Shown piece by piece: positions 29,467 through 49,277 of a stretch of DNA of 64,000 nucleotides. The notes beneath the pieces were generated by a model. It did no database searches. It worked only from the letters and a program-made list of their open reading frames with translations, and was not told where the DNA came from. Position numbers and translations under genes: made by a program. The DNA lies in the NCBI GenBank assembly GCA_024123955.1, contig CP099652.1, positions 4,588,001 to 4,652,000 on the forward strand, read 5' to 3'. Within the stretch, counting starts at the first letter, position 1, and each line of letters starts with the position of its first letter. This DNA comes from Oxalobacteraceae bacterium OTU3CINTB1. Lineage in GTDB: Bacteria; Pseudomonadota; Gammaproteobacteria; Burkholderiales; Burkholderiaceae_D.

Positions 29467-32100
29467 ATGAAAACTATCATTGTCTTTTGTCATCTGCGCT
29501 GGGACTTCGTCTATCAGCGCCCACAACAACTCCTGTCGCGCCTGGCACAACATTACAAAATCGCCTTCGTCGAAGAGCCGGTTTTCCATGATGGCGAGAG
29601 CTTCCTGCAGAGCTCGTCACCCGCACCCAACGTCACCGTCTACCGCCCGCACACACCGGTGCAGGCGCCCGGCTTCCACGACGACCAGATTCCGTTGCTG
29701 CAACCGCTGCTGGCCGAACTCATCCGTGGCGACGACGCCCCCATCGTCTGGTTCTACACGCCGATGGCGCTGCCGCTGCTGCCGCCGCTGCACGCCGGCC
29801 TGGTGGTCTACGATTGCATGGATGAACTCTCCGCGTTCAAGAATCCGCCCAAGCAGCTGCTGCAGCGCGAGACGGCGCTGCTCAAGATCGCCGACCTGGT
29901 CTTCACGGGCGGCCCCAGCCTGTACGAAGCCAAGCGCGGGCGCCACGACAACGCCCACTGCTTCCCCAGCAGCGTCGACGCCGCGCACTTCCAGCAGGCG
30001 CTCGACCGGGGCAACGCCCATCCGCTGCACGCCGGCATCCCGGGTCCGCGCCTGGGCTACTACGGCGTCATCGACGAGCGCTTCGACGCCCCGCTGCTTG
30101 CCGCGCTGGCCGACGCCCATCCGGAATGGCAACTGGTGATGGTCGGACCGGTCGTCAAGATCGATCCGGCCTCGCTGCCGCAACGCCCGAACATCCACTA
30201 CCTGGGCCAGCAGTCGTACGACGCGCTGCCGCAGTTCCTGGCCGGCTGGGACGTGTGCCTGCTGCCGTTCGCGCTCAACGAATCGACCCGCTACATCAGC
30301 CCGACCAAGGTGCTGGAATACATGGCGGCCGAACTGCCGGCCGTCAGCACCGCCATCAAGGATGTGGAAGACCCGTATAGCGACATCGTCTGGGTGGCGC
30401 ACAGCCACGCGGAATTCATCGAGTCCTGCGAGGCGGCGCTGGCGATGACGCCGGTGTTGCGCGCGGCGCTGAACGAGAAGATGCGCGCCGTGGTCGACAA
30501 GACCTCGTGGGAAGCGACCGCCGACGCCATGCGCGCGCTGCTGGCCAACACGCCGCCCTCCAGCAAAGGCGTCAAGCTGAGCCAGCAGGACGGCACCCGC
30601 GTCGCCGCTTCCGCCGACGTGACCTCCGGCAGCGCCGTCGTCAATCCGATGCGCCAGACGTCCGTTGCGCAGCGCACCGGCTGCCTGATCGTCGGCGCCG
30701 GACCGACCGGCCTGTCGGCCGCCTACCACCTGGGCGCCGACACCGTGCTGCTGGAGCGTAACGCCACCGTCGGCGGCTGGTGCCGCTCGATCCAGGACCA
30801 GGGCTTCACCTTCGATTACGCCGGCCACATCATGTTCTCCAACGACCCGTACGTGCTCAAGCTGTACGACATCTTGCTTGGCGACAACCAGCACTGGCAG
30901 ATGCGCGAAGCCTGGGTCTACAGCAAGCAGGTGTTCACCCGCTATCCGTTCCAGGGCGCGCTGTACGGACTGCCGCCGGCCGTCATCAAGGAATGCATCG
31001 TCGGCGCCATCGAATCGCGCTACGGCCTGGCCGACAAGGCGGAGAGCTGCCCCACCGCCGGGACGGATGTCGAAGATTGCTGCGCCGACGGCACCGCCGA
31101 TGTCGCCAACAGCAGCGCCAGCGCCATGTCGACCGCCGCCAAGGGGGAGGACTTCGAGCACTTCATCTACCGCGTGTGGGGCGCCGGCATTGCGCGCCAC
31201 TTCGCCATCCCGTACAACAAGAAATTGTGGACGGTGCCGCTGAAGGAAATGGAAACCTCGTGGCTGGGCGGACGGGTGCCGCTGCCGGATCTGAACCAGA
31301 TCATCGAAGGCGCGCTGGAGCCGGTCGCCAAGCCGATGGGGCCGAACGCCCGCTTCGGCTATCCGAAGCGCGGCGGCTTCCAGGCGCTGGTGTCGGGCTT
31401 CCTGCCGCACATTCGCGGCAAGATCGAGCTCAACGCGGACGCGGTCTGCATCCTGCCGGACGAGCACACGGTGGTGCTGGCCGACGGCCGCCGCCTGCAG
31501 TACGAGCAGTTGATCAGCACCATGCCGCTGCCGGAACTGGTGCGGCTGATCGGCAACGCGGCGCCGCCGGAAGTGCGGCGCGCGGCGGAGGGATTGAAAC
31601 ATATCTCGATCCGCTGCGTGAACATCGGCATCGCGCGCACCGACGTCACCGACAAGCACTGGATCTATTACCCGGAGGACAGCATCTTCCACCGCATCTT
31701 CGTGCAGGGTAACGCCAGCCCGGAATGCAATGCGCCCGGCGGTTTTGGTTTCACTTGCGAGATTTCGTATTCGCCGTGGAAGCCGTTGCCATTGGATGGC
31801 GAAGCGTTGATCGAGCGCTGCATCCAGGACTGCATCAAAGTCGGCATGATGCGCGAGGATGACCGCGTGATCACGGCCAACCAGGTCGACATGCCGTATG
31901 CGTATGTGGTGTACGACCACGCGCGGGCGGAGAACGTGGCGACGGTGCGCGCGTGGATGGAGCAGCACGATATCGTGCTGGCGGGGCGCTACAGCGAGTG
32001 GGAATATTACAACTCGGATCACGCCTTCCTGGCCGGCAAAAAGGCGGCGGAGCGCGTGCAGGCGAACCGTAGCGGTAACGCCAAGACAGCCGAGTCGTAA
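29467..32100 (+). CDS. Fusion protein: glycosyltransferase plus FAD-dependent oxidoreductase
   Basis: 877 residues in one uninterrupted frame; GGGAG lies six bases before the ATG. Residues ~1-375 are a GT-B-like glycosyltransferase (FVYQRPQQLLSRLA; DVCLLPFALNESTRYISPTK donor loop). After a ~30-residue linker, residues ~402-870 form an FAD enzyme beginning with the dinucleotide motif LIVGAGPTGLSAAYHL and continuing with GGWCRS and FDYAGHIMF; this resembles UDP-galactopyranose mutase and protoporphyrinogen-oxidase-like proteins. A Ser/Ala/Cys-rich insert (~525-555) interrupts the FAD domain. The two activities are usually on separate proteins. The substrate is unknown; a sugar-modifying and sugar-transferring enzyme is the simplest guess. 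The HDO-type gene follows in the same direction. Confidence 0.85.
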   Translation: MKTIIVFCHLRWDFVYQRPQQLLSRLAQHYKIAFVEEPVFHDGESFLQSSSPAPNVTVYRPHTPVQAPGFHDDQIPLLQPLLAELIRGDDAPIVWFYTPMALPLLPPLHAGLVVYDCMDELSAFKNPPKQLLQRETALLKIADLVFTGGPSLYEAKRGRHDNAHCFPSSVDAAHFQQALDRGNAHPLHAGIPGPRLGYYGVIDERFDAPLLAALADAHPEWQLVMVGPVVKIDPASLPQRPNIHYLGQQSYDALPQFLAGWDVCLLPFALNESTRYISPTKVLEYMAAELPAVSTAIKDVEDPYSDIVWVAHSHAEFIESCEAALAMTPVLRAALNEKMRAVVDKTSWEATADAMRALLANTPPSSKGVKLSQQDGTRVAASADVTSGSAVVNPMRQTSVAQRTGCLIVGAGPTGLSAAYHLGADTVLLERNATVGGWCRSIQDQGFTFDYAGHIMFSNDPYVLKLYDILLGDNQHWQMREAWVYSKQVFTRYPFQGALYGLPPAVIKECIVGAIESRYGLADKAESCPTAGTDVEDCCADGTADVANSSASAMSTAAKGEDFEHFIYRVWGAGIARHFAIPYNKKLWTVPLKEMETSWLGGRVPLPDLNQIIEGALEPVAKPMGPNARFGYPKRGGFQALVSGFLPHIRGKIELNADAVCILPDEHTVVLADGRRLQYEQLISTMPLPELVRLIGNAAPPEVRRAAEGLKHISIRCVNIGIARTDVTDKHWIYYPEDSIFHRIFVQGNASPECNAPGGFGFTCEISYSPWKPLPLDGEALIERCIQDCIKVGMMREDDRVITANQVDMPYAYVVYDHARAENVATVRAWMEQHDIVLAGRYSEWEYYNSDHAFLAGKKAAERVQANRSGNAKTAES

Positions 32101-32104
32101 CAAG

Positions 32105-32150
32105 GCTGTCGGTGACGCATGCATGGCGGATTACGCTACGCTAATCCGCC
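32105..32150. repeat. REP-like palindromic element, copy 2
   Basis: One base differs from 26521-26566. The stem is GGCGGATTA/TAATCCGCC. It begins five bases after the stop of the glycosyltransferase-FAD fusion, so it may also end or protect that transcript. Confidence 0.85.
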
Positions 32151-32190
32151 ATGTCAAAGCCGGCAGCGTCGCCCCATGCAAACCAGCAAT

Positions 32191-32206
32191 GTAAGCTCTG
32201 TCTTAC
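32191..32206 (+). promoter_or_regulatory. GTAAG-N6-CTTAC dyad upstream of the HDO-type gene
   Basis: GTAAGCTCTGTCTTAC is an inverted repeat about 105 nt before the ATG at 32311. A very similar dyad with a shared CACAGG a few bases downstream lies before cphB. Possibly a regulator site. Confidence 0.45.
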
Positions 32207-32215
32207 ACAAACACA

Positions 32216-32251
32216 GGGGCAACGCCCCTTGGGCGAGCGCCCTGCGGCAGG
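32216..32251 (+). other. Cluster of three short hairpins in the leader of the HDO-type gene
   Basis: GGGGC-AAC-GCCCC, GGGCGAGCGCCC and CCTGC-G-GCAGG follow each other within 36 bases, 60-95 nt before the ATG. They could form a structured RNA leader; no known riboswitch is recognised. Confidence 0.4.
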
Positions 32252-32310
32252 GATAATCTACCGACTATATAGACGAGCTTGACGCCGTCTCACTTTTTCG
32301 GAAGAACACC

Positions 32311-33792
32311 ATGTCCCTACTCGCTCAAACATTGCCAGACACCATCGCCAGCGCCCGCGACAATAGCGCCGAATACGACTCCAGCGCAGCCCCGAGCGCC
32401 GTCTACCGCGCCCTGTCGCCAGGCGTTCCTGTCGGCAACGACCGAGCGATGGCCCGCACGTTCCTGGAGCAACAGCTGCAACAGGCCCGCCTGCTGAGCT
32501 CAGACCTGCCCGACAACACCGCCGGCATGGAAACCTGGATCACCGAACGCTCCGAAGCCATCGGCGCAGAATACAACGCCTACCTCAAGCAGCGCCGCGA
32601 CGGCGCCCCGCGCCGCTACTTCACCACCAAGGCCCACGCGCTGTATTTCCTCAAGCACGTCGCCCCGACCAAGCTGGTCGACGGCGCCTGGCTGTACGGC
32701 GTGCTGGAGCGCTGGGACGATCCCGATTTCCGCCCCCTGATCCAGACCTACCTGGAAGAACTGGGCGACGGCGTGCCGGACAAAAACCACGTGGTTCTCT
32801 ACAAAAAACTGCTGGCCAGCCACGGCTGCGACCAATGGCAGGATGTCGACGAAACCCACTTCGTCCAGGGTGCGATCCAGCTCGCGCTGGCCTACGACGC
32901 CGAACATTTCCTGCCGGAGATCATCGGCTACAACCTCGGCTACGAGCAACTGCCGCTGCACCTGCTGATCACCGCCTACGAGCTGAACGAGCTCGGCATC
33001 GATCCGTATTACTTCACCTTGCACATCACCGTCGACAACGGCGGTACGGGTCACGCCTTCAAGGCGGTGCAGGCGCTGCAACAATTGCTGCCGCGTTGCG
33101 GCGACGCCGCCGCCTTCCTGCGCCGCGTGCAAGACGGCTACCGCCTCAACGATCTGGGCGCCAGCACCAACTCGGTCATCGCCGAGTTCGATCTGGAGGC
33201 TGAACTGGTACACATCATGGCGACCAAAAGCGTGGTCGGCAAGAACATGCACTCCGACTACTGCCGCGTCGGCGGCCGTGGCATCAACGATTGGCTGTCA
33301 GATCCGCAACAGATTCCAGCCATGCTGGGCGAACTGGAAAAAGCCGGCTGGATACAGCGCGGCCAACCCGCGGACAACAGCCGCTTCTGGCGCCTGATCC
33401 AGAGCGAGCGCGCCGAGATGTTCGGCGTGTTCAGCGCCTACGAGCAACAGATCCTGAGCGACTGGATCGCCACCGTGCCTGGCGAGCCGACCGCGCCTGC
33501 CGCCCGCACGCCGAGCTTCCGCGCCCGCCAGCGCGCGCTCGATACGCTGGGCCTGCATCACAGCCCGCGCAGCGGCCCGATGCGTGGCGTCATTCGCCAT
33601 CACGCTACCGACGCCAGCGCCAACGACGACGACGAGGCTATCGGCGAACTGCGTCAACTGGAATTGCAAGTAGCGTCGATGGGCAACAAGCAGGCGGCGA
33701 TGCGATTGCTGCAGTCGCTGATGACGCCGGCGCGCCACCACAGCGCCGTCGGCCTGATGGCCACGCGCCTGTTCCGCCAGTTGATCGACTGA
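32311..33792 (+). CDS. Heme-oxygenase-like putative non-heme iron oxidase (HDO/Haem_oxygenas_2 type)
   Basis: 493 residues; GGAAG lies six bases before the ATG. Residues ~75-265 carry the helical bundle seen in iron-containing redox enzymes of the heme-oxygenase-like diiron oxidase superfamily (UndA, BesC, SznF, CADD relatives). Candidate metal ligands are E149/E150 and H160 (EELGDGVPDKNH), E203 in HFLPEIIGYNLGYE, and the H238-x3-D242-x5-H248 set (HITVDNGGTGH). Known members oxidise or cleave small metabolites such as fatty acids, amino acids and N-hydroxyguanidines. The ~220-residue C-terminal half is of unknown fold. It follows the glycosyltransferase-FAD fusion, which hints at a shared pathway. 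The reaction is unknown. Confidence 0.75.
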   Translation: MSLLAQTLPDTIASARDNSAEYDSSAAPSAVYRALSPGVPVGNDRAMARTFLEQQLQQARLLSSDLPDNTAGMETWITERSEAIGAEYNAYLKQRRDGAPRRYFTTKAHALYFLKHVAPTKLVDGAWLYGVLERWDDPDFRPLIQTYLEELGDGVPDKNHVVLYKKLLASHGCDQWQDVDETHFVQGAIQLALAYDAEHFLPEIIGYNLGYEQLPLHLLITAYELNELGIDPYYFTLHITVDNGGTGHAFKAVQALQQLLPRCGDAAAFLRRVQDGYRLNDLGASTNSVIAEFDLEAELVHIMATKSVVGKNMHSDYCRVGGRGINDWLSDPQQIPAMLGELEKAGWIQRGQPADNSRFWRLIQSERAEMFGVFSAYEQQILSDWIATVPGEPTAPAARTPSFRARQRALDTLGLHHSPRSGPMRGVIRHHATDASANDDDEAIGELRQLELQVASMGNKQAAMRLLQSLMTPARHHSAVGLMATRLFRQLID

Positions 33793-33796: not shown

Positions 33797-34786
33797 CTAT
33801 TTCCCGCCGGTCAGCAGGGCGCGCAAGGCTTCGGCCTCGGCGCGCGCCTGTTGCGCCAGCGCAGCATAACCGGGCTCGGGAGCGACGCTGCGCGCGGAGA
33901 ACTCGGCGGCCAACTGCTCGGCCAGACTCTCCTTCTCCTGCACCGCCCGCAAGGCTTTCGACAAGGCCGCCTCGATGGCCTCCTCCTGTTCCCGAAGCAA
34001 GCTCAGCAAAGTGTAACTGTGACCGGTATGACAGCGGAAACGGCACGACTTCGCGTTATTCAGCGAAAACAGGCTGCCGCCGCATTCCGGACAGGTATAG
34101 GGCGACGGCGTGGCGATGCGCTTGAGCTGCTTCATCTCGCCGCCGCCGGACGCGAAGCGATTTTCCACCGTCAGCCATTCGGGCGCTTGAGCCGGGCCGT
34201 CCGCCACGCGCTCCGGCAGCCCCGCGGCCCACTCGACCAGCGCGCCGGCGATCCCGGCCAGCGGCAGGCACCGGTCCACTTCAACCTGCTCGAGGGCGTT
34301 GCGCGGCATGTCCGACGCGCTGGCATCGGCGGGGTCCTGCACAATGGCGGTCCCGCCGCAGGTCTTGATTGCCGCCAGGCCGGCCACGCCATCATCCAGG
34401 AAACCGGTCAGTATCACGCCGGCGGCGCCCCCGGCGTAAGCGATGGCGGCAGACCGGAACAGCGGGTCGATCGCCGGCCGCGAATGGTTTTCCCGGGGGC
34501 CGTGCACCAGCACGGCGCGCAGCGCATCGCCGTCGCGCTCGACCATCAAATGCCGGCCGGGCGGCGCCACCAGCACCATGCCCGGCGCCAGCGTCTCGCC
34601 GTGCGCGGCGTGCCGCACCGGCAAGGCGCAACTGCGCGAGAGAATGGCCGGCAGCACGCTGGGATGGTCGCCGATATGCATCACAATCAATACAGGCGCG
34701 GGAAAGTCTCCCGGCAGTCCGGCCAGAACTTCCGTCAATGCCGCCACGCCCCCGGCGGAGGCGCCTATCACAACCACTCCGTTCAT
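33797..34786 (-). CDS. Stand-alone CheB-type methylesterase with C-terminal zinc-ribbon-like tail
   Basis: 329 residues from the ATG at 34786 with GGAAGGGA upstream; the open frame extends further but is not protein-like there. Residues ~1-185 are a CheB catalytic domain without a receiver: Ser in GASAGG, His in VMHIGDH and Asp in LTGFLDDGVAG. The tail holds CPECGG...CRFRCHTGH, a likely zinc ribbon, and then a coiled coil. It lies 37 nt downstream of the CheB-CheR-kinase gene on the same strand, so they likely work together. It converges on the HDO-type gene with only four bases between the stops. Confidence 0.85.
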   Translation of the reverse strand: MNGVVVIGASAGGVAALTEVLAGLPGDFPAPVLIVMHIGDHPSVLPAILSRSCALPVRHAAHGETLAPGMVLVAPPGRHLMVERDGDALRAVLVHGPRENHSRPAIDPLFRSAAIAYAGGAAGVILTGFLDDGVAGLAAIKTCGGTAIVQDPADASASDMPRNALEQVEVDRCLPLAGIAGALVEWAAGLPERVADGPAQAPEWLTVENRFASGGGEMKQLKRIATPSPYTCPECGGSLFSLNNAKSCRFRCHTGHSYTLLSLLREQEEAIEAALSKALRAVQEKESLAEQLAAEFSARSVAPEPGYAALAQQARAEAEALRALLTGGK

Positions 34787-34823
34787 CGTTTCCCTTCCGA
34801 CGCGCCACGCGTCGTCGATTTTA

Positions 34824-37800
34824 TCAAGTACCCGTGTTTTTCTCCAACAGCTGCGCGACCTTGCGCGACAGCTCCGCCATGTCCACCGGCTTGCCCACAT
34901 GGGCAGAGAAGCCGGCGTCTAACGCGCGCTCGACATCCTGCCGGCGCGCCATGCCGGTGATGGCCAGCGCCGGCACGTCCTGGTAGTCCGGATGGGAGCG
35001 CAAGGCCCGGATGAAGGCCGTACCGTCCATCTCCGGCATGTCGAGATCGGACATGACCAGATCGAAACGCTGCGCCGGCAGCAGCTTGAGCGCCGCCACC
35101 GGCGAAGCGCAAGCCGTCACCACCGCACCCTCGAGCTCGAGCAGCATGGTGAACACCTCCAGGCCGTCGGCGCTGTCGTCGACCACCAACAGGCGCGCAC
35201 CCTCGAGCACGCGTGTCGGCGGCGCCGCGTCGGCCGCGCGCGGTCCGGCGCCCAGCGCGCGCGGCAAGACCACCGTGAACGTGGCCCCCTGCCCCACGCC
35301 GGCCGACTCGGCCGTGACCCGGCCGCCGTGCAGTTTGACGATCTCGTGCACCAGCGCCAGGCCGATGCCCAGGCCGACGCCGCCGCGCATGGGGTTGGCG
35401 CTGCCCTGCTTGAAGATGTCGAAAATGGTCGGCAGTACGTCGGCGCGAATGCCCTGGCCGGTGTCGCGCACGCACAGGCGCACCTCGCGCTCGTCATGGT
35501 CGAGCGTGACGGTCACGGTGCCGCCGGGCGGGGTGAACTTGATGGCGTTGCTGATCAGGTTCCACACCACCTGTTCCAGCCGCACCTCGTCGGCGTGCAC
35601 CGGCAACACCTGCTCCGGCATCCGCACCACGACCTGGGGCGCGTTGGGCGTGCCGCCCGTCACCTCGACGATGTTGCCCACCAGCGCGCGGAAATCGAGC
35701 TCGCGCCGGTCCAGCTCCATCTTGCCGGTCGACACGCGCGACAGGTCGAGCAGATCGTTGATGATCTTGGCCTGGCTGATGGTCGACGAGCGGATCGCGC
35801 TGACGGCCTTGTGCGCGGCCGGCTCGGCGCGCACCACGGGCAGGCGCAGCAGCACATCGGCGTGCATGTGGATCAGGTTGAGCGGATGCTTGAGCTCATG
35901 CGACATGATGGCCAGGAACTGGTCCTTTTGTTCATTGTCACGCTGCGCCTGGGTGCTGCGGCTGCGTTCGCGTGTAAGCTGCTCGGCGCGGCTCTTCTCG
36001 GCCTCCTGGCGTCCCGTCAGGTCGCGGCCGATCTTGGCGTAGCCGGTCAGCTCGCCGCCGCTCCCGCGCAGCGGCGTCAGCACGCCACTGCAGTAGAAGC
36101 GGCTGCCATCCTTGCGCAGGTGCCAGCGCTCGTCCTCGGCGCGGCCGTCGTCGCGCGCGCGGCGCTGCTCGTCGGCCGGCGCCCCCGCCGCACGGTCCTC
36201 GGGCACGAAGATGAGTTCGTAAGGCCGGCCGATGATCTCGGCCTCGGCATAGCCGAAGATGCGCTCGGCGCCGCTGTTGAAGCTGGTGATTGTGCTGTCG
36301 AGGTCGACGGTAAGAATGATGTAATCCTGGGTGCTGGCCGCGACCAGGCGCATGCGTTCCTCGCTGGCGCGGACGCGCTCCTCGGCTCTGCGGCGCTTGG
36401 TGATGTCGATGAACGTCAGCACCGCGCCGTCGATCTGGTCGAGGCCGGTACGGTACGGCAGCAGGCGGGCGATGAACCAGCGCCCGTCGTCGCTGGCGAC
36501 CTCGCGCTCGACCGGCCGCAGCGACTCGAATGTGGCCGCCGCGTCCTGCGACAGCTCCGGATAGGTCAGCTTGTGTGTGATGTCGTGCAAAGGCCGGCCG
36601 ACGTCGCTGGCGATCAGGTTGAACAACTCGCAGGCATGCGGCGTGTAGCGCTTGATGCGCATGCCGCGGTCGACAAAGATGGTGGCCAGGTCGGTCGAGG
36701 CGATCAGGTTCTGCAAGTCGTCGTTGACCTTGCCCGTCTCCTCGACTTTGCTCTTGAGCTCGAAATTGACGGTGATCAGTTCCTCGTTGACCGATTGCAA
36801 TTCCTCCTTGCTGGTCTCGAGCTCCTCGGTGGCCGAGCGCAATTCCTCGTTAATCGCCTGCAGTTCCTCATTGGCCGCCTTCAACTCCTCGTTCGACGTC
36901 TCCGAGTTTTCGATGGTGTCCTGCAATTGCTGCCGGGTGCGCTGCAACTCCTGTTCCAGGCTCGACAACACGGTGTCTTGCGCCGGCTCGTGCGGGAGGC
37001 CGGCGGCCTGCTCGTCGGTGGTCTGCTCGACCTTGTGGAACAACACCAGGATGAAATCGGTGGCGGTGTTGGCGTCGTAGAACGGCCGCGCCACGATGTT
37101 CACATAAAACACCCGCTCGCCACGCTCGAAGCGCACGCTGCGCGTCTCGACGCTCTTGCCGCTTTGCGCCGCCTGGAACAGCGCGGCGCGCAGCTCCAGC
37201 CGCAGCTCCGGCTCGGCCAGCGCCACCAGGTTGCGCGACGGCTCGCCGGCGACATGGCGCAGGAATTGCGCCGTGCCCTCCGACATGTGGACAATGTTGG
37301 ACTGCTGGTCGACCAGCACGCTCGGCGGCGCGTACTCGGCCAGCACGCGCTGGTGCACGCTGGCGAACGACGGCTTGTCGCCGTGCTGGCGCTCCGGGTA
37401 CGGCACCGCCATCGCGGTCGCCATCGGCGCCATCATCGGGATGGCCGAGCGCGGCAGGCGCGACGTCGGCCGGGCGCGGTAGATGCGGTTTTTCTTATCG
37501 ACCGGCACGAAGAAATCGGCCACCATGTCGGCCGACTCGGAGCCGCCGAGGAACAGGTAGCCGCCCGGGTTGAGCGCGAAATGGAACATCTCGAGCACCT
37601 GGGCGTGGGTGTCGCGGTTCAGGTAGATCAGCAGGTTGCGGCAGCTGATCAGGTCGATCTTGGAGAACGGCGGATCGCGCAGCAGGTTCTGGCTGGCGAA
37701 CAGGATCTTGTCGCGCACCGACTGCTTGATGCGGTAGCGGCCGTCCTCCTTGTTGAAATGCTCGGCCAGCCGCGCGGCCGACACGTCGCGTGCGATGGCC

Positions 37801-38924
37801 GCGTTGTACAGGCCGGCGCGGGCGAAGGCGATCGCGCGCTCGTCGATGTCCGAGCCGAACAGCTGGAACTCCGCGCCGGTGGCGGTCCGGGCCGCGTGTT
37901 CGGTCAGCAGCATGCCCAGCGAATAGGTCTCCTCGCCGGTCGAGCAGCCCACGCTCCAGACGCGCAGCGCCTGGCCGTCCGGGACGTCGGCGAACAGCTT
38001 GGGCACGATGTCGCGCTCGATGCTCTCGAACGCCTCGGTGTCGCGGAAGAACTGGGTCACGCCGATGAGCATGTCGCGCAGCAGCGCCTCGCTTTCGGCG
38101 CGGTCCTCGCGCAGCAGGTCGCGGTACTGCGCCAGCGACGGCTTTTCGCGCACCTGCAGGCGCCGCTCGATGCGGCGCAGCACGGTGGCGCGCTTGTACT
38201 TGGAGAAGTCGTGTCCGGTGCGCGCGCGCAGGATGGTGGTGATGTCGCGCAGCACCTCCTCATCCTCGGCCGGCAGCGCGCTGTCGTTCGACTCGACGAA
38301 CGGCTTGCCCTTGGGCAGCGGCAAGCTGATGCGGCGCGCATTGTCCCACACGGACGCCAGCTTGCCGGGCATCTCGGCCACCGGCAACACGAAATCGACC
38401 ACGCCCGAATCGATCGCCGCGCGCGGCATGCCGGCGAATTCGGCCTCGTCGGGATTTTGCACCACCACCACGCCGCCATGGTCCTTGAGCGCCACCAGGC
38501 CGGCCGCGCCGTCGCTGCCGGTGCCCGACAGCACCACGCCGAACGCGCGCGACTCGTGCGCCGCCGCCAGCGTGCGGAAGAAGGTGTCGACCGCAATCGG
38601 CCAGCCGGCGCCGGCGGCGCGCTCGCGCACTCGCAGGTAGCCGTCGACCATCTCCAGCTGCCGGTTCGGCGGAATCACATAGACGGTGTTCGCTTCAATA
38701 TGGGTCGGCCCGGTGACCTCGACCACCGGCAGCGGCGCCCACTTTTGCAACAGCGCGGCGGCGTCGCTCTCGTGGGTGGGCGACAGATGCATGACCACGA
38801 CATACGACATCGCCACGTCGGGCGTTACGTGCTGAAAGAATTCTTGCAAGGCCGACAGCCCCCCCGCCGACGCGCCGATGCCGACGATAGGAAAATCCTG
38901 GATGCTGGGGAGGGCTTGATTCAT
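34824..38924 (-). CDS. CheB-CheR-PAS-histidine kinase-receiver multidomain protein
   Basis: 1366 residues. CheB-like methylesterase (~1-190; GIGASAGG, VVMHLSPTH, SGTGSDGAAG), CheR-like methyltransferase (~210-480; WSVGCSTGEETYSLG SAM motif), a long coiled coil built of NEEL repeats (~650-740), two PAS domains (~745-990), HisKA with SHELKHPLN (~1004), HATPase and a C-terminal receiver (~1245-1360, MSDLDMPEMDG). Such proteins occur away from chemotaxis operons and are thought to adapt signalling by methylation coupled to a phosphorelay; targets are unknown. No MCP or CheA gene is in the window. A second CheB follows in the same transcript. Confidence 0.92.
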   Translation of the reverse strand: MNQALPSIQDFPIVGIGASAGGLSALQEFFQHVTPDVAMSYVVVMHLSPTHESDAAALLQKWAPLPVVEVTGPTHIEANTVYVIPPNRQLEMVDGYLRVRERAAGAGWPIAVDTFFRTLAAAHESRAFGVVLSGTGSDGAAGLVALKDHGGVVVVQNPDEAEFAGMPRAAIDSGVVDFVLPVAEMPGKLASVWDNARRISLPLPKGKPFVESNDSALPAEDEEVLRDITTILRARTGHDFSKYKRATVLRRIERRLQVREKPSLAQYRDLLREDRAESEALLRDMLIGVTQFFRDTEAFESIERDIVPKLFADVPDGQALRVWSVGCSTGEETYSLGMLLTEHAARTATGAEFQLFGSDIDERAIAFARAGLYNAAIARDVSAARLAEHFNKEDGRYRIKQSVRDKILFASQNLLRDPPFSKIDLISCRNLLIYLNRDTHAQVLEMFHFALNPGGYLFLGGSESADMVADFFVPVDKKNRIYRARPTSRLPRSAIPMMAPMATAMAVPYPERQHGDKPSFASVHQRVLAEYAPPSVLVDQQSNIVHMSEGTAQFLRHVAGEPSRNLVALAEPELRLELRAALFQAAQSGKSVETRSVRFERGERVFYVNIVARPFYDANTATDFILVLFHKVEQTTDEQAAGLPHEPAQDTVLSSLEQELQRTRQQLQDTIENSETSNEELKAANEELQAINEELRSATEELETSKEELQSVNEELITVNFELKSKVEETGKVNDDLQNLIASTDLATIFVDRGMRIKRYTPHACELFNLIASDVGRPLHDITHKLTYPELSQDAAATFESLRPVEREVASDDGRWFIARLLPYRTGLDQIDGAVLTFIDITKRRRAEERVRASEERMRLVAASTQDYIILTVDLDSTITSFNSGAERIFGYAEAEIIGRPYELIFVPEDRAAGAPADEQRRARDDGRAEDERWHLRKDGSRFYCSGVLTPLRGSGGELTGYAKIGRDLTGRQEAEKSRAEQLTRERSRSTQAQRDNEQKDQFLAIMSHELKHPLNLIHMHADVLLRLPVVRAEPAAHKAVSAIRSSTISQAKIINDLLDLSRVSTGKMELDRRELDFRALVGNIVEVTGGTPNAPQVVVRMPEQVLPVHADEVRLEQVVWNLISNAIKFTPPGGTVTVTLDHDEREVRLCVRDTGQGIRADVLPTIFDIFKQGSANPMRGGVGLGIGLALVHEIVKLHGGRVTAESAGVGQGATFTVVLPRALGAGPRAADAAPPTRVLEGARLLVVDDSADGLEVFTMLLELEGAVVTACASPVAALKLLPAQRFDLVMSDLDMPEMDGTAFIRALRSHPDYQDVPALAITGMARRQDVERALDAGFSAHVGKPVDMAELSRKVAQLLEKNTGT

Positions 38925-39353: not shown

Positions 39354-39450
39354 ATCGGCACAGGACGAACCGCCCTACCGGCGCGCCGCGCTCCCTGCGA
39401 CACTGCCTTACGCACTTTTCATGACAACGAACATCGACCGCGAGACACTC

Positions 39451-40371
39451 ATGCAACACACACCAAAAACCCCACCCGCCCCCGGCGCCCTGATGATCAT
39501 CGGCGGAGGCGAGGACCGCACCGACAACAAGGACGTGCTGGCCCGCTTCGTCGAGCTGTCCGGCGGTGCCGAGCGCCCGCTGGTGGTGCTCACCGCCGCC
39601 AGCAAAATCCCCGAGAACGTCTGGGAAATGTACCGCGGCGCATTACACGACCTGGGCGCGCGCAACGTGCGCCACGTGCCCATCGGCGACCGCGTCGACG
39701 CCGACGCCGCCGCCAACGCCGACATCGTCGCCGGCGCCGGCGGCATCTTCATGACCGGCGGCGATCAAAAACGGCTGGTCGCCCACATCGGCGGCACCGC
39801 CGTCGAGCAGGCCATGCGCGACGCCCACGCGCTGCGCGGCGCCTGCATCGCCGGCACCAGCGCCGGCGCCTCGGCCATGTGCACCCACATGCTGGCCGAG
39901 GGCAAGGCCGAGCTGGCGCCGGAAAAAGGCGCGGTGCGCCTTGGCGCCGGCCTCGGCTTCGTCCATCGCGTCGTGATCGACCAGCATTTCTCGCAGCGCC
40001 AGCGCATCCACCGGCTGCTCAGCGTGGTCGCGCAAACCCCGTTCCTGCTCGGCGCCGGCATCGACGAGGACACCGCGCTGATCGTGCACGGCCGCGCCGG
40101 CTTTGAAATCATGGGCGAAGGCACGGTCACCGTGCTCGACTGCCGCACCGCCAAGACCAACATCGCCGACCTGCGCGCCGGCGCCGTGCCGACCCTGGTG
40201 GGCGTGGGCCTGCACCTGCTGCCGTCCGGGACGGCCTTCGCGGCCCCGCCCGACCCGGCGGCCCCGCACACCGCCGCCCCGCGCGGCAAATTGCCCGACG
40301 GCGCCGTGCCGGCTCCGCGCGCGCTGGCCGACTTCCTCGACTTCCTCACCGACCGGAACGACGAATCATGA
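39451..40371 (+). CDS. cphB: Cyanophycinase
   Basis: 306 residues from the ATG at 39451; an ATG ten codons upstream (39421) is possible, and neither has a strong ribosome site. It is a serine peptidase of family S51: LMIIGGGEDRTDN at the start, GIFMTGGDQKRL, and the nucleophile Ser in AGTSAGASAM, with VIDQHFSQRQR near the active site. It cuts the storage polymer cyanophycin to beta-Asp-Arg dipeptides. It overlaps the next gene cphA by four bases (ATGA), the usual cphB-cphA arrangement. Confidence 0.93.
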   Translation: MQHTPKTPPAPGALMIIGGGEDRTDNKDVLARFVELSGGAERPLVVLTAASKIPENVWEMYRGALHDLGARNVRHVPIGDRVDADAAANADIVAGAGGIFMTGGDQKRLVAHIGGTAVEQAMRDAHALRGACIAGTSAGASAMCTHMLAEGKAELAPEKGAVRLGAGLGFVHRVVIDQHFSQRQRIHRLLSVVAQTPFLLGAGIDEDTALIVHGRAGFEIMGEGTVTVLDCRTAKTNIADLRAGAVPTLVGVGLHLLPSGTAFAAPPDPAAPHTAAPRGKLPDGAVPAPRALADFLDFLTDRNDES

Positions 40372-43052
40372 ACATCCTCGAACAACGCGTGCTGCGCGGC
40401 CCCAACCTGTATTCGACGCCCCCCTGCATCCTGACCGTGCTGGATTTACAACACCTGCGCGGCCTTCAAACCAACGAGATCCCCGGCTTCAACCAGCGCC
40501 TGCTCGAGATCCTGCCGTCGCTGCAAGAAGACCGCTGCTCTGCCGGACAATACGGCGGCTTCGCCCGGGCGCTCCACGAAGGCACCAATCTGGCCCACGT
40601 GGTCGAACACGTCGCGCTCGCGCTGCAATGCCTGGCCGGCACGCCGGTCAGCACCGGCCGTACCCACCAGGCCGGCCAGGCCGACGGACACTACCGTGTG
40701 GTGTGCGAATACGAACTCGAGCAGATCGGCATCAACGCGGTCGAGTTGGCCATCACGCTGGTGCGCGCCCTGGCAGAGGCGGACCGGCAGCACGCCGGCG
40801 GCGCGCCAGCGGCGGCGATGCTCGAACCGGGCGGTCCGCTGGAAGACGGCCTGGCCGCGCTGCGCGAGACCGCGCGGCGCCAGGCCAACGGCACCAGCAC
40901 CGGCGCCATCCTCAAGGCCGCCGCACGGCAGGGCATTCCGTTCCGCCGGCTCACGCCGGAGGCCAATCTGTTCGTGCTCGGCTGGGGTGCCCAGCAAAAG
41001 CGCTTGCAGGCCAGCATCACCGGCGATACCGGGCACATCGCCGTCGGCCTTGCCTCGGACAAGGCGCTGACCAAGGCGCTGCTGCGCGAGACCGGCGTGC
41101 CGGTGCCCGAAGGCACGACGGTGCGCTCGCTTGAGCAGGCACAGCGCGCGGCCCTGGCGCTCGGCGGCCCGGTCACCATCAAGCCGCTCGACGGCAACCA
41201 CGGGCGCGGCGTCACCACCCGTTGCGGCACGCCCGACGAGGTGGCGCTGGCGTTCGAACGCGCGCGCGAGCACGGCCGCACCATCATCGTCGAACGCTAT
41301 ATCCAGGGTGACGATTACCGCGTGCTGGTGGCCGGCGAGCGCGTGGTGGCGGCCGCGCTGCGGCGCCCGGCCGCCGTCACCGGCGACGGCGTATCGACCG
41401 TGCGCGAACTGGTGGAACGGGAAAACACCAATCCGGCGCGCGGCGACGGCCACAGCAACATCCTGACCCGCATCCCGCTCGACGGCCACGCCGAGACCAC
41501 CCTGGCCGAACAAGGTTTGCGGCTCGACAGCGTGGCGGCGGTCGGACGCCGCGTGCTGTTGCGCGGCAACGCCAACCTGTCGAGCGGCGGCACCGCCGAG
41601 GACGTGACGGACCGGCTGCCGCCGCAAACGCTGGCCATGTGCGTGCGGGCGGTGCGCAAGATCGGCCTTGACGTCGCCGGCATCGACCTGGTGTGCGAGG
41701 ACATCGGCGTGCCGCTTGACGGCAGGAACGGCGCGGTGATCGAAATCAACGCCGCGCCCGGCCTGCGCATGCATGAATACCCAAGCGCCGGCACGCCGCG
41801 CGACGCCGGCGCGGCCATCGTCGAATCGATGTTCGGCGCCGGCGACGGCCGCATTCCGGTCATCGCCGTCACCGGCACCAACGGCAAGACCACCACCACG
41901 TTGATGATCGAGCACACCTTGCGCCAGGCCGGCATCGGCACCGGCTGCACCACCAGCGAAGGCGTGTTCATCAACGGCGAAGCGATCACCCGGGGCGACT
42001 GCAGCGGCTACTGGTCGGCGCGCTCGGTGCTGGCCGCGCCCGAGGTCGAATTCGCGGTGCTGGAGACGGCGCGCGGCGGCATTCTCAAGCGCGGCCTGGC
42101 GTTCGACCGCTGCGACGTCGCGGTGCTGCTCAACATCAGCGACGACCACCTGGGCCTGGACGGCGTCGAGACGGTCGACGAGCTGGCGCGGGTCAAGGCG
42201 GTGGTGGCGCGCGCAGCCTCGTGCGCGGTGGTGCTCAACGCCGAGGACGAACGCTGCGTGGCCGTCGGCGCCGGCCTCGATCCCGACGTCGAGGTGATCT
42301 ATTTCAGCTGCCAGGCCGAGCACCCGGTGCTGGTCGCGCACCTCGCGCGCGGCGGGCGCGCCGCCTGGCTCGAGCGCGGCGCCGTCATGCTGGCCGACGG
42401 CAAGGCGCGCCAACGGCTGCTCGATGCCAAGGCCATCCCGGCCGCGCTGGACGGGCGCGCGCGCCACAACCTCGCCAACGCGCTGGCGGCCGCCGCCGCG
42501 CTGATGGCCAGCGACCTGGTGCCGGCCATGATCTGCGCCGGCCTGCGCTCGTTCGTCTCGGACGCGCGGCGCAATCCGATGCGCGCCAACGTCTACGAGG
42601 TTGGCGGCGTGCAGGTGATCGTCGACTACGCGCACAACCCGGCCGCCTTCGCCGCGCTGGCCGCCACCGCCCGGGCCATGACGTCGGACCGCACGGTGGC
42701 GGTGGTGACCGCGCCGGGCGACCGCCGCGACGAGGATTTCCGGCGCATCGGCGAGACCTGCCAGGCCGGCTTCGACCAGGCCATCTTCTACGAATGGGAA
42801 AGCGAACACCGCGGGCGCGAGGCCGGCCAGAGGGCCGCGCTGATGCACGCGGCCGCCAGCGCCGCCCGGGGTGGACCGCACGGCTTGCTGGTCGAGCTGG
42901 CGCCGGCCGCCGCGTTGCGCGCCGGACTGGCGCGCTGCCGGCCGGGCGACGTCTTGCTCTACGCCTGCGGCGCCTCGGTGGCGGAGCTGGTCGACGCGCT
43001 GCGCCCGGTCGCCCCCGTCAGCGCCGAGCGCATCGGCGAAATGCTGGCGTAA
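40368..43052 (+). CDS. cphA: Cyanophycin synthetase CphA
   Basis: 894 residues, the usual length of two-site CphA. N-terminal domain (1-160), ATP-grasp domain (~215-485; KPLDGNHGRGV, IVERYIQGDDYRVLV, EINAAPGLRMHEYP) and a Mur-ligase-like domain (~495-880; P-loop GTNGKTTTTLM at ~500). It adds Asp and Arg in turn to make the nitrogen-storage polymer cyanophycin, one ATP per residue. All major motifs appear intact. Translation is coupled to cphB. A second, shorter CphA-like gene lies at 52703-54997. Confidence 0.95.
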   Translation: MNILEQRVLRGPNLYSTPPCILTVLDLQHLRGLQTNEIPGFNQRLLEILPSLQEDRCSAGQYGGFARALHEGTNLAHVVEHVALALQCLAGTPVSTGRTHQAGQADGHYRVVCEYELEQIGINAVELAITLVRALAEADRQHAGGAPAAAMLEPGGPLEDGLAALRETARRQANGTSTGAILKAAARQGIPFRRLTPEANLFVLGWGAQQKRLQASITGDTGHIAVGLASDKALTKALLRETGVPVPEGTTVRSLEQAQRAALALGGPVTIKPLDGNHGRGVTTRCGTPDEVALAFERAREHGRTIIVERYIQGDDYRVLVAGERVVAAALRRPAAVTGDGVSTVRELVERENTNPARGDGHSNILTRIPLDGHAETTLAEQGLRLDSVAAVGRRVLLRGNANLSSGGTAEDVTDRLPPQTLAMCVRAVRKIGLDVAGIDLVCEDIGVPLDGRNGAVIEINAAPGLRMHEYPSAGTPRDAGAAIVESMFGAGDGRIPVIAVTGTNGKTTTTLMIEHTLRQAGIGTGCTTSEGVFINGEAITRGDCSGYWSARSVLAAPEVEFAVLETARGGILKRGLAFDRCDVAVLLNISDDHLGLDGVETVDELARVKAVVARAASCAVVLNAEDERCVAVGAGLDPDVEVIYFSCQAEHPVLVAHLARGGRAAWLERGAVMLADGKARQRLLDAKAIPAALDGRARHNLANALAAAAALMASDLVPAMICAGLRSFVSDARRNPMRANVYEVGGVQVIVDYAHNPAAFAALAATARAMTSDRTVAVVTAPGDRRDEDFRRIGETCQAGFDQAIFYEWESEHRGREAGQRAALMHAAASAARGGPHGLLVELAPAAALRAGLARCRPGDVLLYACGASVAELVDALRPVAPVSAERIGEMLA

Positions 43053-43088: not shown

Positions 43089-45038
43089 CTACACGAGCCG
43101 ATCAGTACCGCCCGCCCGGTCGGCGTGGGCGGTCTGCAAAATCTTGATCAGGTCGCTGAGCCGGTAAGGCTTGGGGATCAGGTCGAAGGCATCGAGTTCG
43201 GGACTCTGGTCCTGCAGGCTGGACCGTGTGTAACCGGACGCCAGTATCACCTTCACATTTGGAAATTCGCGGCGCGCGATTTTCGCCAGCTCGATGCCGC
43301 CCATGCCCGGCATCACGACGTCGGTGAACAGGATAGCGATGTCGCCGCTGGCGCGCAAGGTCGCCAGCGCCTCGACGCCGTTGTTGGCCGACAGTACGTC
43401 GTAGCCGAGATGGCTGAACAGCGCCACCGCCGTTTCCAGCACGTCGGGCTGGTCGTCGACCAGCAGCACCTTTTCCGATTTGCTGTGTCCGTTATCGGCG
43501 TGGGCGCCATCGGCGTCGACGATGGCCGGGAAATACAGCGCCACCGTCGTGCCCTCGCCCACCACCGACGTGATTGCCAGGTCGCCCTGGCATTGCTGCG
43601 CCAGTCCGTACACCTGGCTCAACCCCAGCCCCGTGCCCTTGCCGACGGGCTTGGTCGTGAAGAACGGCTCGATGGCGCGCGCCACCGTCTCCGGCGGCAT
43701 GCCGGTGCCCGAGTCCGTCACGGCCACCCTGACGTAGCTGCCCGCCGGCAACTGTCCAACATCGCCGTCGGCCAGTCGCACCGTGTCAACGGCAACCGTC
43801 ACGTCGCCGTGGTCCGGCATGGCGTCGCGCGCATTGACCACCAGATTGAGCAATGCCGCCTCGAACTGGGTCGGATCGATCAGCACGCCGGGCAGGTCTG
43901 GCGCCAACTGCATGCGCAGCCGCATGCGGCTGGGCACCGCGCGGTGCAGCACCGCGTCGAACGAGCGGATCACGCGGCCGATATCGTGCGCCTCGCGCCG
44001 CAGCGGCTGCTGCCGCGCGAACGCCAGCAACTGCTGGGTCAGCGCCGCCCCCCGCTGGGCCGCCCGCTCCATCGCGTCCATCGCGCGGCGCTGCGCGGTG
44101 CGGTCGACCACCGTGCGCAGGATGTCGAGCCCGTTCATGACGACGTTGAGCAAATTGTTGAAGTCGTGGGCGATACCGCCGGTGAGCTTGCCGATCGCCT
44201 CCAGTTTCTGCGATTGCAACAGCGATTCGCGCGTGCGTTCGAGTTGCTCGGCGGCCTGCCGGCGCTCGGTGATGTCGCGCGTCACCTTGGCAAAGCCGAG
44301 CAGCTTGCCGCCGGCATCGTGGATGGGATCGATCACCACGTTGGCCCAGAAGCGGGTACCGTCCTTGCGCACGCGCCAGCCTTCGCGCTCGAACCGGCCC
44401 TCCTTGAGCGCCGTGCTCAGCGCCACCGCCGGCGCCCTGGCGGCCTGGTCCTCGGGCGTATAGAACATCGCGAAACTCTCGCCGACCACTTCGTCCGCCT
44501 CATAGCCCTTGATGCGCCGCGCGCCTTCGTTCCAGTTGGTCACCACGCCCTCGGGCGACAACATATAGATCGCGTAATCGGTCACGCCCTGCACCAGCAG
44601 CCGGAAGCGCTCCTCGCTGGCATGCAGTTCGTCCTGGGCGGCGCGCTGGGCCGTGATGTCGCGCGTGATCTTGGTAAAGCCGAGCAATTCGCCGGCATCG
44701 TCCCAGATCGGATCGAGCACCACGCTGGCCAGGAAGCGGGTGCCGTCCTTGCGAACGCGCCAGCCCTCGTCCTCGAACTTGCCGGTGGTCCTGGCCTGTT
44801 CCAGCGCCAGCGCCGGCCGCCCGCGCGCCTGTTCCTCGGCGGTGTAAAAGACCGAAAAATGGCGGCCGACGATCTCGTCCTCGCGATAGCCCTTGAAGCG
44901 CTGGGCGCCGGCGTTCCAGGTGATCACCACGCCCTCGGGCGACAGCGTGTAGATCGCGTAATCGGTGACGCTGACGATGAAATGGCGAAAGCGCTCGGCT
45001 TCGAGCGCCTGGGTGGTCGACGGCTTTTCTTGCTGCAT
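43089..45038 (-). CDS. Hybrid histidine kinase, PAS-PAS-HK-REC
   Basis: 649 residues from the ATG at 45038, with AGGA six bases upstream. Two adjacent PAS domains (~15-125 and ~135-250) share long identical stretches (VTDYAIY-LSPEGVV, EGWRVRKDGTRF) and look like an internal duplication. Next come HisKA with the GGIAHDFNNLL motif (~288), HATPase (~395-515) and a C-terminal receiver (~530-645, LFTDVVMPGMGG). No membrane helix is present, so the signal is cytoplasmic, perhaps redox or a small ligand. No partner regulator with DNA-binding domain is next to it. Confidence 0.93.
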   Translation of the reverse strand: MQQEKPSTTQALEAERFRHFIVSVTDYAIYTLSPEGVVITWNAGAQRFKGYREDEIVGRHFSVFYTAEEQARGRPALALEQARTTGKFEDEGWRVRKDGTRFLASVVLDPIWDDAGELLGFTKITRDITAQRAAQDELHASEERFRLLVQGVTDYAIYMLSPEGVVTNWNEGARRIKGYEADEVVGESFAMFYTPEDQAARAPAVALSTALKEGRFEREGWRVRKDGTRFWANVVIDPIHDAGGKLLGFAKVTRDITERRQAAEQLERTRESLLQSQKLEAIGKLTGGIAHDFNNLLNVVMNGLDILRTVVDRTAQRRAMDAMERAAQRGAALTQQLLAFARQQPLRREAHDIGRVIRSFDAVLHRAVPSRMRLRMQLAPDLPGVLIDPTQFEAALLNLVVNARDAMPDHGDVTVAVDTVRLADGDVGQLPAGSYVRVAVTDSGTGMPPETVARAIEPFFTTKPVGKGTGLGLSQVYGLAQQCQGDLAITSVVGEGTTVALYFPAIVDADGAHADNGHSKSEKVLLVDDQPDVLETAVALFSHLGYDVLSANNGVEALATLRASGDIAILFTDVVMPGMGGIELAKIARREFPNVKVILASGYTRSSLQDQSPELDAFDLIPKPYRLSDLIKILQTAHADRAGGTDRLV

Positions 45039-45285
45039 GAGGATTCCTCGTGACACGAAACAGTCGTGTACTCTCACCCGAATTCTAAAGGAGCTGTCGG
45101 GAAACGTTGCTGAGCAAGCTGTCAATCGTCCGTCCAGGACAAGGAGTCACTTGCAAACATAAATTTACCGCATCTGTCCCCGCAGCGTGGCTGCATGCGG
45201 GTTCGACGTTGTTATTCGACACAAGCACCCATGGCACCACCTTGCACCAGTATAATTTTCAAAGGTGATCTAAAAGGAAACAACA

Positions 45286-45960
45286 ATGCTTGGCAAAATG
45301 AGAGCCGCGAAGTGGATGCGCGCAGCCGCCGCCCTTACGCTGGCCATGGCGATGGCAAAGTCCGCCGCCGCGCAGGCCCGCATCGACGACGGCGCCGAGA
45401 AGACCGACATCGCGGAGATGTTCACGCTGACCGCGCTGGCCGCCTTCTCCGATTCCGCAGCCAGCGCCACCCTGCAGGACCAGTTGTACGCCGCCTCGCC
45501 GACCAGCGTGAAAGCCGGGTTCCTGTACAAATTCCTCGGCTACGTCGACTTTCCCGCCGGCCCGCTCGATCCCGGCACGCCGTACGTGGTGGGCGTGGTC
45601 GGCGCCGACGGCATCGCCGCCGAACTGACGCGGCTGACCGCCGGGCGCCTGGTCAACAACCACGCCGTCGTGGTGCGCAAAATGCAGGGCCACGACCCGT
45701 CGGGTGGCCTGCACCTGCTGTTCATCGGCGCGGACGAAGGCGCCGACGAGGCGGCGCTGGTCAAGGCCGCGCAGCCGGCCGGCGTGCTGACGGTCACCGA
45801 ATCGGCCACCGGCATCGAATCGGGCAGCGTCATCAATTTCAAGCTGGTCGACGAGCGCGTGCGCTTCGAGGTCTCGCTGGCGGCGGCCGACAAGGGCCGG
45901 CTCAAGCTGAGCTCGCGCCTGTTGTCGGTGGCGTACGCGGTGCAGAAAGGCGGCGGCTGA
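45286..45960 (+). CDS. YfiR-family periplasmic protein (DUF4154)
   Basis: 224 residues with a signal peptide (~1-29, ending SAAAQ) and a YfiR domain from ~68 (SVKAGFLYKFLGYVDFP...VINFKLVDERVRFEV). In Pseudomonas YfiR restrains the CHASE8 diguanylate cyclase YfiN from the periplasm and uses cysteines for redox control. This protein has no cysteine at all, so it cannot sense redox that way. AAGGAAA precedes the ATG, and TATAAT lies at 45251. The stop overlaps the start of a CHASE8 hybrid kinase (TGATG), which is thus the likely partner. Confidence 0.85.
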   Translation: MLGKMRAAKWMRAAAALTLAMAMAKSAAAQARIDDGAEKTDIAEMFTLTALAAFSDSAASATLQDQLYAASPTSVKAGFLYKFLGYVDFPAGPLDPGTPYVVGVVGADGIAAELTRLTAGRLVNNHAVVVRKMQGHDPSGGLHLLFIGADEGADEAALVKAAQPAGVLTVTESATGIESGSVINFKLVDERVRFEVSLAAADKGRLKLSSRLLSVAYAVQKGGG

Positions 45961-47915: not shown

Positions 47916-47982
47916 AATAACAGGGAACTTTTCAGCGTACAAAACGTTCCCAAATGTCCGAATGTCGGACCTGACCCCGGGG
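47883..47982. repeat. Long nested inverted repeat overlapping the end of the CHASE8 kinase gene
   Basis: The left arm (47883-47909) and right arm (47955-47982) pair over about 25 bases (CCGACATTCGGACA with TGTCCGAATGTCGG, CCGGGG-TCAG with CTGACCCCGG). Inside, GGGAAC (47923-47928) pairs with GTTCCC (47946-47951). It may be a REP-type mobile palindrome and could act as a transcription terminator after the kinase gene. Confidence 0.8.
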
Positions 47983-48017
47983 TTATTCACAGCCGGCGCC
48001 GAAGCTGAGAGCGTTCG

Positions 48018-48212: not shown

Positions 48213-48221
48213 GCTGGGCCG

Positions 48222-49118: not shown

Positions 49119-49147
49119 GCTCGATTGCTCCTCAGGTAGATGACATC

Positions 49148-49163
49148 AAAGTGATATCACTTT
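49148..49163. promoter_or_regulatory. Perfect 16-bp palindrome, likely operator of the SPFH operon
   Basis: AAAGTGATATCACTTT overlaps the -10 box and start region of the SPFH promoter. A bound protein would block RNA polymerase. The co-transcribed Arc-like protein is the best candidate ligand, by inference. Confidence 0.6.
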
Positions 49164-49255: not shown

Positions 49256-49277
49256 CTTGGCAAACTAGAAGACCAGC

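Follow-up and report, generated by a model that had tools for sequence, protein, structure and literature searches.

A DtpC-family heme-oxygenase-like protein encoded with a second cyanophycin-type gene cluster in an Oxalobacteraceae bacterium

Introduction

A 3H/3C set of metal ligands has been described for the heme-oxygenase-like diiron oxidases (HDOs), whose characterised members have fatty or amino acids as their main substrates (PMC13108848). Desiccation tolerance in Acinetobacter baumannii depends on the HDO DtpC along with KatE; the two genes share an operon, residues E143, H153 and H232 are required for protection, and changes to the metal ligands abolish it (PMC13232832). The BLAST relatives of DtpC named in that paper come from Acinetobacter, Stutzerimonas and Pseudomonas, and its authors state that no other member of the HDO family had been tied to oxidative stress defence or desiccation tolerance. 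For the cyanophycin synthetase CphA, the G-domain residues that bind aspartate and the primer end are described in PMC9427784, and a primer-making Cx19HxxEH motif in PMC9262961. Here we analyse a stretch of 64,000 nucleotides from Oxalobacteraceae bacterium OTU3CINTB1 (hereafter the window), in which the gene of a DtpC-family HDO belongs to a second cyanophycin-type gene cluster that also holds a putative N-methyltransferase gene.

In the open-licence PMC literature we found no paper joining cyanophycin to 'heme oxygenase-like' or 'N-oxygenase', and nothing on 'cyanophycin synthetase' with Massilia. A search there for 'iron-containing redox enzyme' with methyltransferase gave no paper that is on topic by its title and the opening of its abstract, and the main text of PMC10206079, which deals with cyanophycin gene clusters, has no words beginning oxygenase or redox.

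Results

The HDO protein and its relation to DtpC

The two plus-strand open reading frames (ORFs) that the initial annotation had singled out, of 877 and 493 residues, lie exactly where it placed them (Table 1), and its assignment of the second to the HDO type is borne out. The Pfam model PF14518 (Haem_oxygenas_2) matches residues 112-278 with 106.7 bits against a cut-off of 28.9 (E 1.6e-30), and the other Pfam match, DUF4936, stays under its cut-off; the NCBIfam search returned no model, and a sequence search of the PDB no relative. This is the sole PF14518 match found in its own genome. The proposed ligand pattern of the type E...H, E, H-x3-D...H is real, with the spacing E150-x9-H160, E212, H238-x3-D242-x5-H248, and 71 of 75 DtpC-family sequences (the window protein, 71 retrieved loci and three records from a plasmid collection) have the full six-ligand 3H/3C set. 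The four others are L051, a 337-aa piece whose gene match is broken over two frames, and the degenerate paralogues L106 (8177-9598, plus strand), L116 (7398-8495, minus strand) and L125 (7735-8871, minus strand). Because several ligands are gone at once, these three resemble metal-free paralogues; all retain the C-terminal P-x2-HH-x3-G stretch and are possibly non-catalytic relatives of DtpC. Conserved residues in the C-terminal part of the window protein are H314, P473, H476 and G481. Relatives at 58-95% identity (best segment) are encoded in 51 loci, which puts the observation far beyond chance; those that are named include Duganella and Massilia, as fits an Oxalobacteraceae host.

An AlphaFold2 model of the window HDO, made from 43 aligned sequences (the window protein and 42 of the 71 retrieved HDO rows), has a mean pLDDT of 88.3 and a pTM of 0.88, and predicts a heme-oxygenase-like fold. 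When the model was compared with the PDB by Foldseek, the first nine places were all taken by HDOs (probability 0.98-1.00, E 1.6e-3 to 0.26), with HrmI, RohS and SznF (PDB 9n1x, 9pfw, 6vzy) at the top. The nine matches are weak in E-value yet all of one kind, N-oxygenases according to their PDB titles; SznF we also take to be an N-oxygenase. Judged by sequence, the window protein is a heme-oxygenase-like, putative dimetal protein with a complete predicted ligand set; its metal, reaction and substrate we infer. Two other candidates for the protein were set aside: a MarR profile match of its C-terminal part is not significant (E 0.25), and PADLOC gave no hit that would speak for an anti-phage role.

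At least three chromosome-sized A. baumannii records match 93% of the window HDO at 36.4-36.6% identity (tblastn against the plasmid collection, among the best 20 of 30 matches). In one of them (L128), the ORF encodes 469 residues when its third start codon is used, with E143, H153 and H232 in place; its residues 8-463 make up 97% of the protein, as in the deletion described in PMC13232832, and a 714-aa catalase gene begins 54 bp past its stop, the spacing given there for katE. Since the residue numbering, the span and the catalase spacing all agree, this ORF is dtpC. It matches the window HDO at 36.6% identity over 93%, all six ligands are kept, and DtpC E143, H153 and H232 correspond to E150, H160 and H238 of the window protein. 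From the identity of the ORF and its full-length match it follows that the window HDO belongs, by sequence, to the DtpC family. DtpC also has the second half, which had at first been left unassigned.

A second set of cyanophycin genes near the HDO gene

The window contains the whole set of HDO, cyanophycinase, two cyanophycin synthetase-like genes (CphA-A and CphA-B) and methyltransferase, split by inserted signalling and stress genes (Table 1). The CphA-A gene overlaps the cyanophycinase gene by 4 bp. In the first separating stretch the large hybrid sensor is presumably a CheB/CheR-PAS-histidine kinase, and in the second we take the remaining genes to encode sensor kinases and an SPFH-like protein.

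Neighbouring genes in the other loci were identified by tblastn with named queries. In 41 of the 51 loci a cyanophycinase or CphA match lies at most 150 bp past the HDO stop on the same strand, as in the close relative L043, where the cyanophycinase match begins 72 bp past HDO; counting four more loci (L004, L034, L042 and L049), 45 of 51 have such genes in the HDO cluster, no more than about 3 kb away. No cyanophycin gene match was found in the DNA examined around HDO in L035, L044, L045, L046, L047 and L051. The linkage persists through at least four gene orders. In the compact form of Duganella radicis (L050), HDO, cyanophycinase and CphA-A follow one another on one strand and face CphA-B, preceded by the methyltransferase gene, on the other. 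The order in Pseudoduganella (L034), and likewise in L121 and L122, is HDO, methyltransferase, IaaA, cyanophycinase and CphA, all in one direction; in Massilia, HDO and CphA face an opposed run of IaaA, cyanophycinase and CphA; and in L111 HDO is followed by CphA-B with a cyanophycinase beside it. A conserved neighbourhood, by which the initial annotation had proposed to judge its gene pair, therefore does exist, but its members are cyanophycin synthetase, cyanophycinase and methyltransferase and not the upstream 877-residue gene.

Other genes recur beside HDO. The window's CheB gene also adjoins it in genome G023 (L054) but did not turn up in the 51 named loci; CheB-like genes 47% identical to each other adjoin HDO in two distant lineages (window 33797-34900 and L129 6535-7518). 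The gene of a thiamine-pyrophosphate enzyme (NF006129; L008 846-2606) precedes HDO in 14 of 51 loci, and a gene that we take to be nicotinamidase-like (L013 9095-9745, for example) is found in 19 of the 51.

Table 1. Positions of the HDO gene, its cluster and the intervening genes in the window
Feature	Position	Strand	Description
GT-UGM fusion	29467..32100	+	877 aa; neighbour, outside conserved unit
DtpC-family HDO	32311..33792	+	493 aa; PF14518 core 112-278; predicted ligands E150, H160, E212, H238, D242, H248
Separating stretch 1	33797..38924	-	CheB methylesterase (PF01339) and large hybrid sensor, between HDO and cyanophycinase
Cyanophycinase of HDO cluster	39421..40371	+	TIGR02069, 239.8 bits, cut-off 126.6; start possibly 39493
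CphA-A	40368..43052	+	894 aa; divergent cyanophycin synthetase of GY type with intact N, G and M site residues
Separating stretch 2	43089..52597		Sensor kinases, SPFH-like, KGG, Mn catalase, ZIP, DUF892
KGG stress protein	49278-49655		
Mn catalase	50035-51027		
ZIP transporter	51095-52060		
DUF892 protein	52082-52597		
CphA-B	52703..54997	-	GY-type CphA-like, 764 aa; retains the Mur-ligase (M) half, with a degenerate ATP-grasp (G) half
PrmC/AerE-like N-methyltransferase	55036..55998	-	320 aa, NPPYLL motif; upstream of CphA-B

CphA-A scores 995.2 bits with TIGR02068, above the cut-off of 850, which CphA-B does not reach (482.4 bits). CphA-A keeps the G-site residues R309, R323, N394, S396 and R458, the Cx19HxxEH primer site and the P-loop of the M domain. 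Among 61 cluster CphAs the G site is intact in 56 and lost in five, including the window CphA-B, and each loss is matched by an intact site in the partner gene. All but two of the 61 retain the M-site P-loop Lys (59 of 61); the two losses, in L002 and L043, whose CphA-A keeps its G site, may be true changes or sequencing or frame errors. A quick tree of the 63 CphA-like ORFs (of 86) that passed a length and start-motif filter separates the 61 cluster CphAs from the genome's canonical pair with full support, the latter being the only two outgroup rows and on long branches. The G-site losses fall in two separate parts of this tree, which means that this active site was lost repeatedly.

A Tyr in the M half (GY) marks all 64 GY-type sequences (the 61 cluster CphAs and L141-L143) and none of 12 canonical-type ones, which have Pro, as do the two solved CphAs aligned; a canonical CphA' (L126_p6087) was excluded from the 12 because its M-site P-loop is lost. 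We conclude that CphA-A is a distinct type of cyanophycin synthetase by its residues and its place in the tree, and suggest that the Tyr alters the pocket for the side chain or the chain end. The changed Mur-ligase site and the repeated loss of one active site would mean that polymers other than Asp-Arg may exist. Absence of the Glu215 contact of TeCphA1 was dismissed as evidence for a different side chain, since the canonical-type CphAs that were read lack this Glu as well (A/S/N). The canonical CphA'/CphA pair of this genome lies far from the window (L126 3925-10258); its CphA' has lost the Mur-ligase P-loop Lys, and the pair is followed by what is presumably a catalase-like gene.

Co-occurrence across genomes

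Of 100 genomes searched, 38 matched HDO at E 1e-3. We counted the 29 long, strong matches (28 in the same genus, plus G083) and left out as short or weak those in G002, G006, G009, G017, G034, G048, G052, G053 and G073. The same-genus set comprised 60 genomes, 28 with HDO and 32 without. In genome surveys the GY type was called by score (E <= 1e-230), the residue itself having been read in the 64 sequences above. The CphA-A type is present in 27 of the 28 HDO genomes and in none of the 32 others (Fisher 3e-16), and the methyltransferase in 23 of 28 compared with 1 of 32 (Fisher 9e-11); both p-values ignore relatedness and so overstate the association. Canonical-type CphA, by contrast, is found at 43-45% identity in each of the 60 genomes among the matches listed, in which the second, CphA'-type copy does not appear for every genome. 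In a wider sample of 398 other genomes of the order, HDO was found in 13 and CphA-A in four, in each case no more than 150 bp from HDO; nine of these 13 HDO genomes also have the methyltransferase, as do both HDO genomes detected among 368 others of the class. Linkage and co-occurrence of HDO with cyanophycin genes and with the methyltransferase are therefore both observed. That CphA-A was not found without HDO in the genomes searched, while HDO is often found without CphA-A, fits an HDO product that is needed by the polymer system better than it fits the opposite dependence.

The N-methyltransferase

The profiles matching the methyltransferase are PrmC (E 2.2e-18), gentamicin methyltransferase and AerE, and enzymes of these three kinds occupy the first 13 places in the fold comparison. 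Its best PADLOC match, mad2 (E 9.4e-24), covers the methyltransferase part, and the rest are methyltransferase models. Of 69 mapped HDO stretches (some from the same genome), 14 have the gene beside HDO, in either orientation; among these 14 are two genomes from other orders of the class (L119 and L120) and four f25 genomes with no cyanophycin genes nearby. On plasmids of Komagataeibacter (L146) and Variovorax (L147), a homologue adjoins a different, 294-aa HDO that can barely be aligned with the DtpC family; these pairs lie at L146 5001-6813 and about L147 4165-5957. The pairing of methyltransferase and HDO is thus wider than the link to cyanophycin, and a wider HDO-methyltransferase pathway is possible. 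In the sole HDO-less genome of the genus with a homologue (G019, L124), NAAW replaces the NPPY motif, and in Sphingobium (L148) a homologue was found with no HDO within 5 kb.

The upstream fusion gene

The 877-residue protein had been described as a GT-B glycosyltransferase joined to a UDP-galactopyranose mutase-like FAD enzyme (GT-UGM), and this was confirmed: Pfam finds GT-B domains at residues about 210-355 and NAD_binding_8 from residue 408, and the closest PDB sequences are eukaryotic-type UDP-galactopyranose mutases (4dsg, E 6.9e-46). The match to NCBIfam NF005548 is below cut-off (E 1.9e-49). This single chain may both make and transfer galactofuranose (Galf).

The proposal that the two genes together make or modify a glycosylated metabolite fared otherwise. 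They do lie side by side in the window, L002, L043 and G023. Over 37 same-genus genomes, however, the full fusion shows no association with HDO (7 of 15 genomes with HDO, 8 of 22 without; Fisher p 0.73), and it lies directly upstream of HDO in just two of the 51 named loci (L002 and L043), with a third about 2 kb away in L050; the upstream flank of HDO is shorter than 5 kb in some of the 51. On this count we dropped the two as a functional pair: the co-occurrence test largely refutes the pairing, and a joint pathway is now highly improbable. The full fusion is present in 15 of the 37 genomes, and six more have a match to one half.

Elsewhere in the window, two genes at 23626-25495 on the minus strand match N-acetylglucosaminyl phosphatidylglycerol synthase (NF053787, 380.6 bits of a cut-off of 480) and the corresponding deacetylase (NF053788, 224.1 of 280), both under cut-off yet far above the other models listed. 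The window has no tRNA and no RNA family at gathering score.

Discussion

We propose, tentatively and at a little under an even chance, that the HDO and the N-methyltransferase form a module for modifying an amino acid or peptide tied to a second cyanophycin-like polymer, in the service of stress survival. The HDO would use O2, activated at its dimetal site, to oxidise the nitrogen of an amino acid, in keeping with its nearest folds, and the PrmC/AerE-like methyltransferase would N-methylate an amino acid or short peptide before or after that step. In streptozotocin biosynthesis, a methyltransferase acts on arginine ahead of SznF. In bacteria of the Duganella/Massilia type the module would be built into a dedicated system of CphA-A, CphA-B, cyanophycinase and sometimes an isoaspartyl peptidase. 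Its product could be a building block of the polymer, or could be drawn from the arginine- or lysine-rich breakdown products of the polymer, which would be rich in one of these residues if it is like the first. The system would serve survival under drying or oxidative stress, a role suggested by DtpC and by the stress-gene neighbours on plasmids and in the window. The proposed reaction and substrate are inferences, as are the connection of the module to the polymer and a stress function in the Oxalobacteraceae host. One specific form of the product, an Asp-backbone polymer with an N-oxygenated and/or N-methylated side-chain residue loaded by the GY-type Mur-ligase sites, seems unlikely in itself; if true, drying cells would hold a redox-active or metal-binding reserve, and the DtpC reaction would be the same amino-acid N-oxidation chemistry.

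Several observations weigh against this proposal. The similarity to N-oxygenase folds is weak in Foldseek (best E 1.6e-3, TM 0.39 by query), and the co-occurrence counts take no account of relatedness. HDO is present without CphA-A or cyanophycin genes nearby in ten stretches from other families. The single same-genus HDO genome without CphA-A, G041, is a draft of 330 contigs, but the gap is not a mere matter of assembly, since the L035 contig shows 10 kb past HDO without CphA-A. The methyltransferase is absent from 5 of 28 same-genus and 4 of 13 order-level HDO genomes, and in the CphA-A genomes G115, G328, G357 and G439 it lies far from HDO or on another contig. An extra CphA-A-type gene stands apart from HDO in G003, G020, G028, G032, G038 and G044, all six of which also have HDO; in the two cases viewed (L149 7375-10883 and L150 8001-11470) the extra GY-type CphA has its own cyanophycinase. 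As to the stress role, stress genes are rare in the 51 named loci, with one Mn catalase, no DUF892 gene and two catalases at the far edge. Finally, the 13 kb around A. baumannii dtpC contain no cyanophycin genes, which means that the HDO can carry out its reaction without the polymer; the same record holds no full methyltransferase match, only partial ones (best E 2.8e-9), so DtpC can act without the methyltransferase.

The isolated HDO genes in the ten stretches also suit a serious rival, which we hold to be possible though doubtful, namely that HDO, methyltransferase, cyanophycin genes and catalases are independent members of a stress island, kept together for shared regulation, and that the HDO product has nothing to do with the polymer. 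Acinetobacter plasmids carry HDO near catalase, otsA/otsB trehalose and DUF421/DUF2171 genes, on a Comamonadaceae plasmid its companions are YsnF/AvaK, ferritin-like and CheB genes, and the window itself has Mn catalase, DUF892, KGG and CheB genes; the operon that DtpC shares with katE (PMC13232832) is of the same kind. Such an island would not, however, readily account for a GY-type CphA that was never found without HDO in the genomes searched (27 of 27 in the genus, 4 of 4 in the order sample) when canonical-type CphA is in all 60 same-genus genomes, nor for a methyltransferase that pairs with two unlike HDO families; and the rarity of stress genes in the named loci counts against it too.

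It is also conceivable, but improbable, that the HDO is in practice no enzyme, and protects by binding iron or consuming peroxide. Iron sequestration and scavenging of reactive oxygen species are left possible for DtpC in PMC13232832, and the loss of protection on changing its metal ligands is in line with this. Its conserved association with a methyltransferase gene and with polymer synthetase genes argues instead for small-molecule chemistry, as does the main activity of characterised HDOs on fatty or amino acids (PMC13108848).

Members of the DtpC family are found in Oxalobacteraceae, in Acinetobacter, on a Comamonadaceae plasmid and in further families and orders of the same class. Two kinds of partner that co-occur strongly can now be named for the family, the N-methyltransferase and the second cyanophycin system; they offer a first clue to its substrate, and soil bacteria are identified in which the DtpC-family reaction can be addressed.

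Compared with the described systems, the window HDO is like DtpC in its full-length architecture (493 and 469 residues), its six ligands and its C-terminal part. The context differs: DtpC sits in the katE operon and its record has no full methyltransferase match, whereas the window HDO has a minus-strand CheB gene and then the cyanophycinase downstream, with cyanophycin genes and the methyltransferase as partners. The window gene is thus not in a katE operon, which is a matter of context and not a trait that defines the family. With the N-oxygenase HDOs, it shares a segment in which RohS EFGSGNLKRSH aligns with ELGDGVPEKNH of the window, an alignment not significant alone (E 0.41); in contrast to HrmI, RohS and SznF, the DtpC family has a long C-terminal part and a D-x5-H in the last ligand helix. 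The methyltransferase has the NPPY motif, fold and sequence profile of the PrmC, AerE and gentamicin N-methyltransferases, and differs from them by an N-terminal domain of its own. CphA-A, lastly, has the G site, primer site and P-loop of CphA1 (TIGR02068; PDB 7wac, 7lg5), but where CphA1 reads GD(C/N/T)(S/T)GP(R/K/Q)SA, most of the CphA-A type reads GDC[ST]GY[WHRK]SA (Tyr in 61 of 61), and unlike CphA1 it is accompanied by a partner, CphA-B, whose G site is lost.

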